Shown here: positions 5,248 to 10,255 of the stretch, piece after piece
How the letters are laid out: every line of letters begins with the position of its first letter
Numbering within the stretch: the stretch's first letter is position 1
DNA from: Mollicutes bacterium PWAP
GTDB lineage: Bacteria; Bacillota_I; Bacilli_A; Mycoplasmatales; Metamycoplasmataceae
Length of the DNA: 17,033 nt
Assembly: GCA_019661745.1 (NCBI GenBank)
Contig: JAIFTM010000042.1
Span: 1-17,033, forward strand
Reading direction: 5' to 3'
Notes under the pieces: model-generated
Told to the model about the DNA's origin: nothing
The model's input: the letters and a program-made list of their open reading frames with translations, nothing else
Database searches by the model: none
Translations under genes and position numbers: made by a program

Positions 5248-5275
5248 TATTTTTTAAAATATGAATGGAGTTATT

Positions 5276-6883
5276 ATGGAAAAACAAAAAAAAAAATCAA
5301 TTAAATATATTTTTGTTACAGGTGGCGTTGTATCAGGTTTGGGGAAAGGAGTAAGTGCTGCATCTTTAGGAAGATTATTGAAAAGTAAAGGTTACAATAT
5401 TTTTGTTCAAAAATTAGATCCTTACTTGAATTTAGATCCTGGAACTATGGATCCTTACGAACATGGGGAGGTTTATGTTACAAAAGACGGTGGAGAAACT
5501 GATTTAGATTTAGGTCATTATGAAAGATTTATTGGTGAACAATTTAACAAAAATTCTAATTACACACAAGGTAAAATATTACAAGAACTTTTTGATGAAG
5601 AAAGAAATGGAAAATTTTGTGGTAAAACTGTTCAAATATTTCCTCAATTTACAAATAAAATAATTGAAAAAATTCTTTTGTCTGAAAAAAATAAAAAAAT
5701 TGATTTTGTTATTACAGAAGTTGGGGGAACAATTGGCGATATGGAAAGTGAACCCTTTATTAAAGCAATTAGTGAATTTCAAAATATGAGAGAAACATTT
5801 TTAATTCATGTTACTTATCTCCCTTACCTAACAGCTTCTGAAGAATTAAAAACTAAACCTACTCAAGAGTCTGTAGCTAAAGTTATGTCCAAGGGGTTAA
5901 TTCCTTCTATGCTTCTTTTAAGATCTGAAATAGAAATTCCTAATAAAATTCTTGATAAAGTTTCAAGAAGAACATTAATAAAAAGAGAAAATGTTATTCC
6001 TGTACCTACAAATGATTCTATTTATAAAATCCCATTATTTTTTAATGAATTTAAAATGGCAGAAATAGTGGAAAAATATTTTGATATGCCAATTAAAAAA
6101 ATGGATATTTCTCCTTGATCAAATTTTGTTGCCAAAATTGATAAACCTAAATCAAAAATTTTAAATATTGGTTTAATTGGTAAATATGTTGAATTTGAAG
6201 ATGCTTATAAATCAATTTCTGAAGCATTAAAAATTAGTGCAATACATAAAAATGTTAAATTGATTTACAATTGAATTCAAGTTGATGAAATTACAAAAAT
6301 TAATGTCGATAATAAATTAAAAGGTTTAGATGGAATAATAATTTTACCTGGTTTTGGTAAACGTGGATTTGATGGCAAAGTTATTGTTTCTCAAAAATCA
6401 TGAAAAGATGATATTGTTACTTTAGGAATTTGTTATGGATTTCAAGCTATGGCTGTGGCACAAGCCAAAAGACAAGGGTTAGTAAATGCCACAAGCAGCG
6501 AAGTTGATAAAAAAGGTGATTTTGTAATAGATATTATAAAAGGTAAATCATTGAAAAATAAAGCTGGAATACTTCGCCTAGGAGAAAGCACAACTATTCT
6601 TAAAAAAGGTAGTATTGCATCTAAAATTTATGATTCCAATGAAGCTAAAGAAAGACATAGACATAAATTTGAAGTTAACCCCAAATACATCAATTCAATA
6701 GAAACAAAAACATTTATTTTTTCTGGATTTGATAAAAAGACAAATCTTTATGAAATGTTAGAAGACAATTCTAAAAAATTTTATATCGGTCTTCAAGCAC
6801 ACCCTGAATTTAATTCCAACCCCTTAACTAGTCATAAACTATTTGATGCCTTTATTGAATCAATTATTAAAAATGTAAAATAA
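5276..6883 (+). CDS. pyrG: CTP synthase (glutamine hydrolysing)
   Basis: The protein has 535 residues, the normal length. PyrG aminates UTP to CTP using ATP and glutamine-derived ammonia. The N-terminal synthetase domain (to ~270) has the nucleotide loop GGVVSGLGKG near residues 15-24, KLDPYLNLDPGTMDP and GGTIGDMESEPF. The C-terminal class I glutamine amidotransferase domain has the nucleophile Cys386 in GICYGFQ (more often GICLGMQ) and the His509/Glu511 pair in HPEF. At least three Trp are encoded by UGA, including the one ending the domain linker at 6116-6118. The ATG at 5276 has GGAG 5 nt upstream; the in-frame ATG at 5261 precedes that site and is not preferred. Confidence 0.97.
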
Positions 6884-6924: not shown

Positions 6925-6942
6925 TTTTACAAAGAGGTAAAA

Positions 6943-8784
6943 ATGAATAAAAAAAGAATATTTTATTTAATGAATGTTGAAACATTTTATGATTCAAATA
7001 AAGATGGCATTGGTGATATTAAAGGAATTGAAAAAAAACTTGGTTACTTTAAATATTTAGGTGTTGATACATTAGTAATTCAAAAAGTTATGTCAAATGA
7101 ATTATTTTCATTAAGAAAATCAATTGGAACAAATGAAGAATTAAAATTGCTTACTACTAAAGCTAAACAAATGGGAATAGATATTTTGATTGAATTTGAT
7201 TATTTAAAATTAAATCAAACAATTGAAAAATATTTAAAAAATACTACTGGAGAAATGATATTAAGTGCTAAATTCAAAAAGATTATTGAAACTCTTTCTT
7301 CTTTGGTAACTAAATATAGTTCATTAGGTGTAGCTGGATTTGAATTTATTCGTTTTTCTTCATTAATGAATGATAAAGACAAAATGCTTAAATCAATTTC
7401 GTTTATATATAAAAAAATTAAAGAAATTTCTCCTAAATTTATTATTAAGGGGAGTAGTTCTTTCTTTGATTTTGAAGATACTGATAAAATTACTTATGGA
7501 GAAAATAAAGCTTTTGATTATTTTACAAATAAAAGATTAAGTTTTGTTGGCGCTTCTAAAGAAGAAAACTATTGAGTAAAAAAACAAAGAAAAACTACTC
7601 TACTTTTAGGTAGAATGATTAATAAATTTTATAGAAGAAAAGACAATTCTCAAGTTATAAGTTTTGGTTCGCGCTTTATTGGTCGTTTTATTGAACGTTG
7701 AGGAAATGATTCGAAATATCACGAACAAAGTGCCAAAGCAATTTTTATTATGAAAGTTATGATAACTACTTCTATTTCTATTTATGCGGGAGATGAATTT
7801 GGGGTTTTAAATAAAGAGTTTACATCATTAAATGATTTTAATGATGTAGAAATTGATATCAAAAGACAAAGATATTTATCAAATAATAAAAAACGAAAAA
7901 ATAGTAACTTTTTTATAGAACAATCTATTTTAAATAAAGAAGCTTCAGAAACTTTAATACCTTGAAATTCTAATTTTAAAACCAATTATGGATTTTCAAA
8001 AGGAGAAACAAATTTTTCCGCTCCCAAAAAAAGTATTTTATTTAATATTAAAAATCAAGTTTTAAATAATAATTCTGCTATTAACTTTGCTAAAAAATTA
8101 ATTAATTTTACTAACAGTAAAGAATATTTAAAATTTTATAATGATGCTGAATTTTCTGTTGGTGGAACTATTTTGAATGTTCTTACTTATAAAATAATGG
8201 GCACAAACAACAAAAACATTATTGTTGTTATAAATTTAAGTGATGAACCTAGAAGAATTAAAAAATATAAAAAATATAAAATTTTATTTTCTAGTTACAA
8301 TGATATTACTAAAAAACCTCATGTTTTAAGATCTTATGAAGCACTTATTTTAACTTCAATAGAAGAATTGGAAGAATTAAAAAAAGAAGATATTTTTAAA
8401 AAAGAAAATACTCAATTAAAAGAAGCAGTTATTGAATTGAATAAAAGTTCACAAGAAAAATTAAATGAAATCAAACAACAAGTTAATATTAATGAATCTT
8501 ATAAAACAAATGAAATTAATGTTTTTGAAGAAGAATCTATTGAAGGCGATGATTCAATTGATAAATTAGAAGAAGATTTGATTGAAATATCAACAAAAGA
8601 AATTAATATTGACTTTGGTGATGTGATTGATGAGACAACTTTAAATACTATTGCTATTAGTTTAGATGAAAACATAAAATATGCAAACAGAGATTATTCT
8701 CAAGGCAGTACTCGCTCAGAAGAAGAAATAGCAGCAACTATTGAAATGTCTGAAGAAGAAATAAGAAAAGCTTTAGAAGATTAA
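6943..8784 (+). CDS. GH13 (alpha-amylase family) homologue lacking catalytic residues, with acidic C-terminal tail
   Basis: The protein is 613 residues. The N-terminus (FYDSNKDGIGDIKGIEKKLGYF) is that of oligo-1,6-glucosidase-type GH13 enzymes, including the DxNxDGxGD calcium loop at 17-25. Residues 248-290 keep the family's R…R-GND…Y…SAK…IYAGDEFG framework. The active site is gone: where the family has GFRxD, this has GFEFI (132-136); the general-acid Glu is Ser171; NHDQPR is SRFIGR (243-248); and the DxVxNH motif is absent. Residues ~440-613 form an acidic, coiled-coil-like extension rich in Glu, ending in several …EEEI… runs. No signal peptide is seen. Three Trp are UGA. It sits between housekeeping genes with its own promoter and terminator. 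The frame is intact, so this is a maintained non-enzyme rather than a pseudogene; its role is unknown. Confidence 0.85.
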
Positions 8785-8809
8785 AAAAAGATCATTTTTT
8801 GATCTTTTT
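8785..8809. terminator. Bidirectional terminator between the GH13-like gene and dus
   Basis: AAAAAGATCA (8785-8794) pairs with TGATCTTTTT (8800-8809) around TTTTT. Both strands read a stem followed by T residues, so it can serve both convergent genes. It directly abuts the plus-strand stop, and its 3' end overlaps the minus-strand stop codon. Confidence 0.8.
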
Positions 8810-9850: not shown

Positions 9851-10255
9851 ATGGATAAATTAAATAAACAAAAACAAAAAAAAGAAGCTCAAAAAAAAGA
9901 AGCTCAAAAAAAAGAAGCTCAAAAAAAAGTTAATAGAAAAGCGGGAGCAATAAAAGCAGCAGAAACAAGAGCCAAAAATAAAAAAATTGCTGAGTCCAAA
10001 AAAGAAAAAAGAGTTATTGCAGGTAAAAAAGCTGCAGAAACAAGGGGAAAAAACGAATACTTAATTCAAAAAACTTCTGATGGAAAAAAATGAGAAATTA
10101 GAAAAAGAACTTCTGGTAGAGCAACAAAAACTTTTAAAACAAAAAAAGAAGCTCAAGAATTTTATAAAAATATTAAAAATGCAAATGGCAAAAAATTAAT
10201 TACTAAAAAGAAAGATGGAAAAGTACAAAAAGTAGTTAAAAAAGTTATTAAATAG
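9851..10255 (+). CDS. Basic protein: Lys/Ala repeats plus a DUF2188-like domain
   Basis: The 134-residue protein is very rich in Lys and Ala, with one UGA-Trp (residue 81). Residues ~10-27 are tandem KKEAQ repeats. Residues ~30-68 hold two copies of a KAAETRxKN motif (AGAIKAAETRAKN and AGKKAAETRGKN), reminiscent of histone-H1-like or KGG-type basic proteins. Residues ~70-128 (W-EIRKRTSGRATKTFKTKKEA…NGKKLITKKKDGKVQ) match the pattern of the small DUF2188 domain, a strand-rich fold ending in a helix and a KDGKxQ hairpin. A nucleic-acid-binding role is inferred from charge and composition; the domain has no assigned function that I can state. Its leaderless-type promoter is divergent from dus. 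Confidence 0.75.
9875..9928 (+). repeat. 15-bp in-frame tandem repeat (KKEAQ), three full units and a partial
   Basis: The unit CAAAAAAAAGAAGCT begins at 9875, 9890 and 9905, and a fourth partial copy begins at 9920. The DNA copies are identical. Each holds an A8 run. Unit gain or loss stays in frame, while slippage in an A8 run would shift the frame. Confidence 0.95.

Follow-up and report, generated by a model that had tools for sequence, protein, structure and literature searches.

The 17,033-nucleotide window analysed here (the forward strand of contig JAIFTM010000042.1, assembly GCA_019661745.1, from Mollicutes bacterium PWAP) contains a gene for a protein of glycoside hydrolase family 13 (GH13) in which all three residues of the catalytic triad have been replaced. 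We are highly confident that this protein is not a glycosidase, and we consider it rather probable that it belongs to a group of non-enzymatic GH13 proteins whose barrel and domain C act as a platform for binding or oligomerization, that is, as a scaffold. Non-enzymatic use is supported by a fold predicted to be intact, by the lost catalytic residues, by the pattern of conservation, by purifying selection in relatives and by synteny. Membership of GH13 is indicated by a significant match to the Pfam Alpha-amylase profile (PF00128, E 1.2e-17), by matches to dextran and oligo-1,6-glucosidases of the Protein Data Bank (PDB; best E 5.4e-21) and by a predicted (beta/alpha)8 barrel, modelled at high confidence, followed by domain C.

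The initial annotation had claimed a GH13 fold with its catalytic positions replaced, and profile, alignments and model bear this out: Ile136, Ser171 and Phe245 occupy the places of the Asp at beta4, the Glu at beta5 and the Asp at beta7, respectively. In addition, the Arg of region II is Glu134, the Asn-His pair of region I is Leu88-Lys89, the His of region IV is Arg244, the GYD motif is missing and the loop after beta3 (domain B) is shortened. The predicted structure, which could have revealed an alternative Asp/Glu/Asp set, places none in the active site, and misalignment was ruled out as an explanation, since alignments A1 and A2, a more extensive MAFFT alignment and the places of the strands in the model all agree. 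The same residues are lost in related mycoplasmas. Among 54 disarmed copies (a set that includes P0002, whose source organism is not known, and leaves out the interrupted copy L111 of genome G073 and L089, which is cut by a contig end), 39 keep no triad residue, 15 keep one and none keeps two; in each of the 29 intact proteins used for comparison the triad is complete. The nucleophile Asp is present in nine copies, the acid/base Glu in six and the region II Arg in one; the transition-state Asp and GYD occur in none. The replacements differ between copies, the commonest being Lys at the acid/base column (33/54). It has been reported that BmaN1 of GH13_45 shows activity although its triad is aberrant, and that some bacterial GH13_48 members lack catalytic residues (PMC11239784). 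An enzyme still working with a displaced or aberrant catalytic set could thus be imagined here too, and the scattered Asp and Glu residues would fit it; however, the absence of any copy with two triad residues, the complete loss of the transition-state Asp and GYD, and the variety of replacements make it highly improbable.

The disarmed state is shared widely. The window's GTDB family, with 135 genomes, was searched with a profile of disarmed copies and the copies were then read, which yielded a disarmed copy in 55 genomes (P0002 not counted), or 55 of the 58 in 11 genera (g1 1/1, g2 4/4, g4 3/3, g7 1/2, g8 1/2, g9 1/1, g10 1/1, g11 5/5, g12 11/12, g13 24/24 with one interrupted, and g14 3/3); the three genomes without one are 75-89% complete. 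In the 24 g13 genomes the disarmed protein is the only GH13 found at E <= 1e-10. The source genome, G000, uses code 4, holds 549,125 bases in 85 contigs and is the sole genome of its genus in the survey; no second PF00128 protein was found in it, at 80.9% completeness. Named carriers include Metamycoplasma canadense, alkalescens, gateae, auris, phocicerebrale, neophronis and hyosynoviae, M. arginini, Mycoplasma marinum, Mycoplasma todarodis and Candidatus Mycoplasma mahonii. Members of the Metamycoplasma group are named 'alpha-amylase family glycosyl hydrolase' or 'Glucan 1,6-alpha-glucosidase' by NCBI, a naming that implies an activity for which the residues give no support; all 13 proteins of one NCBI-named set (P0047-P0059) are disarmed, lacking the Glu, the second Asp and GYD, and nine of the 13 keep the nucleophile Asp. 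No description of the disarmed group was found in full-text searches of an open-access library, which lacks most subscription papers, and PMC2751442 and PMC6753208 gave no match for glucosidase, amylase or glycosid.

Genera g3, g5 and g6 (77 of the 135 genomes, assigned by handle ranges, the 17 genomes without a match not being listed) yielded no disarmed copy. All 23 copies read there are intact (L014, L018, L021 and 20 more, 14 from g3 and six from g6; other matches, short ones included, are outside this number), and a disarmed copy was likewise not seen behind holA in nine of the genomes that carry them. Beyond the family, an order-wide search at E 1e-20 (248 genomes, family members included) matched 18 genomes of other families, and all ten copies read, L023 and L026 included, have the full triad, eight copies being left unread. 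At two loci an intact GH13 paralogue (L010 2215-3765 and L017 2617-4107) is followed by a GH65-like phosphorylase gene, so named from its sequence, which suggests a disaccharide-phosphorolysis operon.

In a quick unrooted tree of 74 rows (21 intact and 53 disarmed proteins, L089 and L111 again excluded), the two kinds stand on opposite sides of one branch with full support (Shimodaira-Hasegawa-like approximate likelihood ratio test, SH-aLRT, 100), and the window protein, devoid of GYD, falls on the disarmed side. This fits a single loss of catalysis but does not prove it, and a grouping of the window protein with the intact proteins was not rejected by an approximately unbiased (AU) test (p 0.347), an outcome to be expected if the window protein branched off first within the disarmed group. 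The initial annotation had proposed that the fold is kept for a role other than hydrolysis, and had suggested examining whether the ratio of non-synonymous to synonymous substitution (dN/dS) is low in orthologues. The proposal gains more support than initially claimed: the disarmed copies across the family are under purifying selection, with Nei-Gojobori dN/dS of 0.03-0.18 in eight pairs of relatives (one of which uses L089), compared with 0.03-0.27 for holA in the seven pairs holding it, dS exceeding 1 and being near saturation in four pairs. Orthologues in sister lineages, whose frameshift or absence would have told against the proposal, are mostly present and intact; the exceptions are the interrupted G073 copy and g3, g5 and g6. 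For the window copy itself, selection may be deduced from its open frame, codon-position composition, confident fold and kept tail motif.

Where conservation persists indicates which parts of the protein may matter. Measured against 24 intact mollicute GH13 proteins, each column has on average lost 1.24 bits of conservation in the loops of the active-site face, 0.71 bits elsewhere in the barrel and 0.08 bits in domain C (loops versus rest of barrel, p 2e-5; barrel versus domain C, p 6e-12), and 50 of 50 equal-size subsamples agree. Within the barrel, retention is among the highest in the calcium-type loop, in alpha1 and alpha4 and in the segment that precedes beta6 (ratios 0.81-0.92). Tyr156, located in alpha4, and Asp192 are among the sites conserved specifically in the family. 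The role of the beta1-alpha1 loop in calcium binding is our assumption. This pattern bears on the main rival, namely that the old cleft binds a sugar or phosphosugar without catalysis, as in a sensor or storage protein. The frequent Lys at the acid/base column speaks for it, as do an Arg at the column of Arg248 in 48/54 copies and a best NCBIfam equivalog match to trehalose-6-phosphate hydrolase (TIGR02403), although at 88.9 bits this lies far below the cut-off of 799. On the other hand, relaxation is strongest in the loops that surround the cleft, the window protein has Ser171 rather than Lys, and the survey left no intact GH13 to be regulated in the 24 g13 genomes; we therefore regard sugar binding, which the initial annotation had also named as a candidate role, as weakened and rather unlikely. 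Basic charge was also considered as a sign of nucleic-acid binding: the mean charge per 100 residues is +3.2 in disarmed barrels, +1.0 in 318 neighbouring open reading frames (ORFs) and -0.4 in 29 intact proteins, which is suggestive only, as AT bias confounds the comparison and the order is reversed in one of seven same-genome pairs (G006).

The scaffold that we favour could have arisen as follows. The triad, the region II Arg, the GYD motif and the greater part of domain B would have disappeared in an ancestor, and the cytosolic barrel plus domain C would then have been kept as a binding or oligomerization platform, acting via its surface (beta1 loop/alpha1, alpha4 and domain C) and not via the former sugar pocket. 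An acidic helical tail would have been gained in the window lineage and in some relatives. In the window protein this tail comprises 138 residues with a net charge of -23, compared with +29 for the barrel, and its end can be aligned with those of P0002 and of the G006 and G007 copies. Four of the copies seen have tails ending in a conserved motif, (E/D)(E/D)IA(A/S)T, that might act as a docking peptide or belong to an oligomerization helix. A search for the motif in other proteins was negative: in seven genomes a tail profile matched only the GH13 tails of G000, G006 and G007 above chance, with one chance-level match (G077, E 0.044) and nothing in three genomes.

The disarmed gene mostly forms a compact unit with holA. 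In 42 of 54 neighbourhoods the disarmed GH13 gene lies directly behind holA, and in ten of them comEC comes immediately before holA (Pfam confirmed two holA members and one comEC member; the others were assigned by clustering). The distance from the holA stop to the GH13 ATG ranges from -14 to +44 nt, with a median of 9 and eight overlaps, in 41 of the 42 neighbourhoods; L111 counts among the 42 and is excluded from these distances, which include L089. In many g13 genomes an MHJ_0274-family gene and what we take to be pgsA follow the disarmed gene, and in six genomes (G006, G007, G009, G020, G077 and G078) the order is MHJ_0274 gene, pgsA, disarmed GH13, holA being located elsewhere in the four of these six that were searched. 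The window gene shows neither placement and lies between pyrG and a convergent dusB; holA was not found in G000 with Pfam PF06144 or with a 12-row family profile, which in so incomplete a genome does not show its absence. We also entertain, as a doubtful idea, that the barrel was recruited once, early in the family, as a structural part of the core process encoded next to it, either DNA replication, in which HolA is a clamp-loader subunit, or the synthesis of membrane lipids, which involves PgsA, and is now a housekeeping protein of 11 genera, including g13, where no working GH13 was found.

The MHJ_0274-family membrane protein (NF045939 in three members tested) adjoins pgsA in 31 loci, e.g. 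L063 4835-5338 and L086 7567-8103. As a specific partner of the disarmed GH13 this protein (cluster c2) was rejected: NF045939 is named after a locus of M. hyopneumoniae, a species that we assume to belong with g6, where no disarmed copy was seen, and the two proteins would therefore not depend on each other, although no co-occurrence search was made.

Non-enzymatic GH13 proteins are known from amino-acid transporters, namely 4F2hc (GH13_34) and rBAT (GH13_35), of which 4F2hc lacks domain B and the triad (PMC8537225 and PMC11239784). The disarmed group resembles 4F2hc in lacking the triad and most of domain B and, by analogy, might likewise serve as a partner subunit; however, 4F2hc and rBAT are glycosylated membrane ectodomains, whereas the window protein is bacterial, looks cytosolic and has relatives that are mostly encoded with holA or pgsA. 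A role as accessory subunit of a membrane transporter is accordingly very unlikely: model and alignments start directly at beta1, no signal peptide or 4F2hc-type membrane anchor is apparent by eye (no predictor was run), hence the cytosolic appearance, and no transporter gene was recognized among recurrent neighbour clusters, most of which were judged by eye only. A homodimer interface of rBAT lies in alpha4 and the beta5-alpha5 loop (PMC8537225). One may guess, by analogy, that alpha4 is used similarly in the disarmed group, but the beta5-alpha5 loop is its least conserved part (ratio 0.33), which speaks against an rBAT-type interface.

Several observations weigh against the scaffold. The long tail is absent from most copies; the holA link is missing in 12 of the 54 neighbourhoods, that of the window included, and may reflect shared expression only; the Lys at the old acid/base column could mark a surviving role of the pocket; and three genera showed no disarmed copy. 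Part of the relaxation may be plain divergence, as the mean pairwise identity is lower in the disarmed set (0.285) than in the intact set (0.415). The window genus, moreover, is a single genome, so that selection on this copy is deduced only, and its branch is long (1.67). This long branch, the changed pyrG/dusB neighbourhood, the interrupted G073 copy and the three genera without a copy would also suit a functionless gene decaying in the window organism. Nevertheless, we consider decay quite unlikely, given that all 613 codons are open, as initially stated, that codon-position GC (0.316/0.268/0.098) is similar to that of other coding frames of the window, that the Shine-Dalgarno sequence is intact, that the barrel is predicted at high confidence and that the tail motif is kept. 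Recent pseudogenization is contradicted by dN/dS and conservation in the relatives, and could apply only to the window copy. In L111 (376-7532), a gene that we take to be DNA-ligase-like (cluster c5), holA and the disarmed GH13 gene all lie within 7 kb and each consist of two separate ORFs, and assembly errors are therefore possible.

Compared with oligo-1,6-glucosidase, dextran glucosidase and trehalose-6-phosphate hydrolase (PDB 9u7v, 5do8, 2zic and 5brq), the window protein has the same fold, calcium-type loop, domain C and YAGDEFG after beta8, at 17-20% structural identity, but differs in lacking the triad, region II Arg and GYD, in the shortened domain B loop and in the added acidic tail. 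GH13_48 and BmaN1 are likewise bacterial GH13 proteins with incomplete or aberrant triads; in the disarmed group the loss extends over 11 genera, with conserved synteny. Non-enzymatic GH13 subunits of transporters and bacterial GH13 proteins without catalytic residues were already known. A syntenic group, under selection in 11 genera of small-genome bacteria, would be a clear example of how an enzyme fold can be converted into a structural component. Mycoplasma annotations also name a glucosidase that is probably lacking, including in g13 genomes whose sole GH13 found is disarmed, and the presence of copies in dozens of species makes the function directly testable.

Table 1. Features of the disarmed GH13 gene and its surroundings (window coordinates; CSR, conserved sequence region)
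Feature	Position	Strand	Basis
Disarmed GH13 protein, 613 aa plus stop (code 4)	6943..8784	+	ORF, profile and PDB matches, alignments
GAGG, Shine-Dalgarno-like, 5 nt before ATG	6934..6937	+	direct sequence reading
Retained beta1-alpha1 calcium-type loop, residues 12-25, with DSNKDGIGD	6976..7017	+	sequence; conservation ratio to intact enzymes 0.81
CSR II, end of beta4: Glu134 at invariant Arg, Ile136 at nucleophile Asp	7342..7350	+	alignments, model
CSR III, end of beta5: Ser171 at acid/base Glu	7453..7455	+	alignments, model
CSR IV, after beta7: Phe245 at transition-state Asp; Arg248, three residues on, kept	7675..7677	+	alignments, model
Domain C, residues 402-472, conservation almost that of intact enzymes	8146..8358	+	model, conservation
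C-terminal extension, residues 476-613, net charge -23, long helix predicted to residue 531	8368..8781	+	model, composition
Tail-end motif EEEIAAT, common to P0002 and G006, G007 copies	8719..8739	+	alignments, tail profile
Hairpin plus U run, terminator-like, between GH13 gene and convergent dusB	8785..8809	+	z -3.44; terminator scan made no call
pyrG (name presumed from sequence), upstream neighbour	5261..6883	+	ORF list

Of the expression signals initially ascribed to the gene, the Shine-Dalgarno sequence was recovered and a promoter of its own was not supported; the terminator stands as a hairpin with a U run but drew no call from the scan (Table 1). Elsewhere in the window, positions 9851-10255 encode a DUF2188 protein (E 7e-9) that carries KKEAQ repeats in succession close to its N-terminus, and positions 267-815, directly upstream of lepA, a protein whose N-terminus resembles Rho_N weakly, below the cut-off, and which has a hydrophobic segment in its C-terminal part. 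A tRNA-Trp with anticodon CCA lies at 133-206, yet in six window genes checked Trp is encoded 37 times by TGA and never by TGG. A second tRNA, with anticodon TCA, is found on another contig (locus L223), where ARAGORN labels it SeC under the standard code, and the pair therefore looks ordinary for a code-4 mycoplasma.
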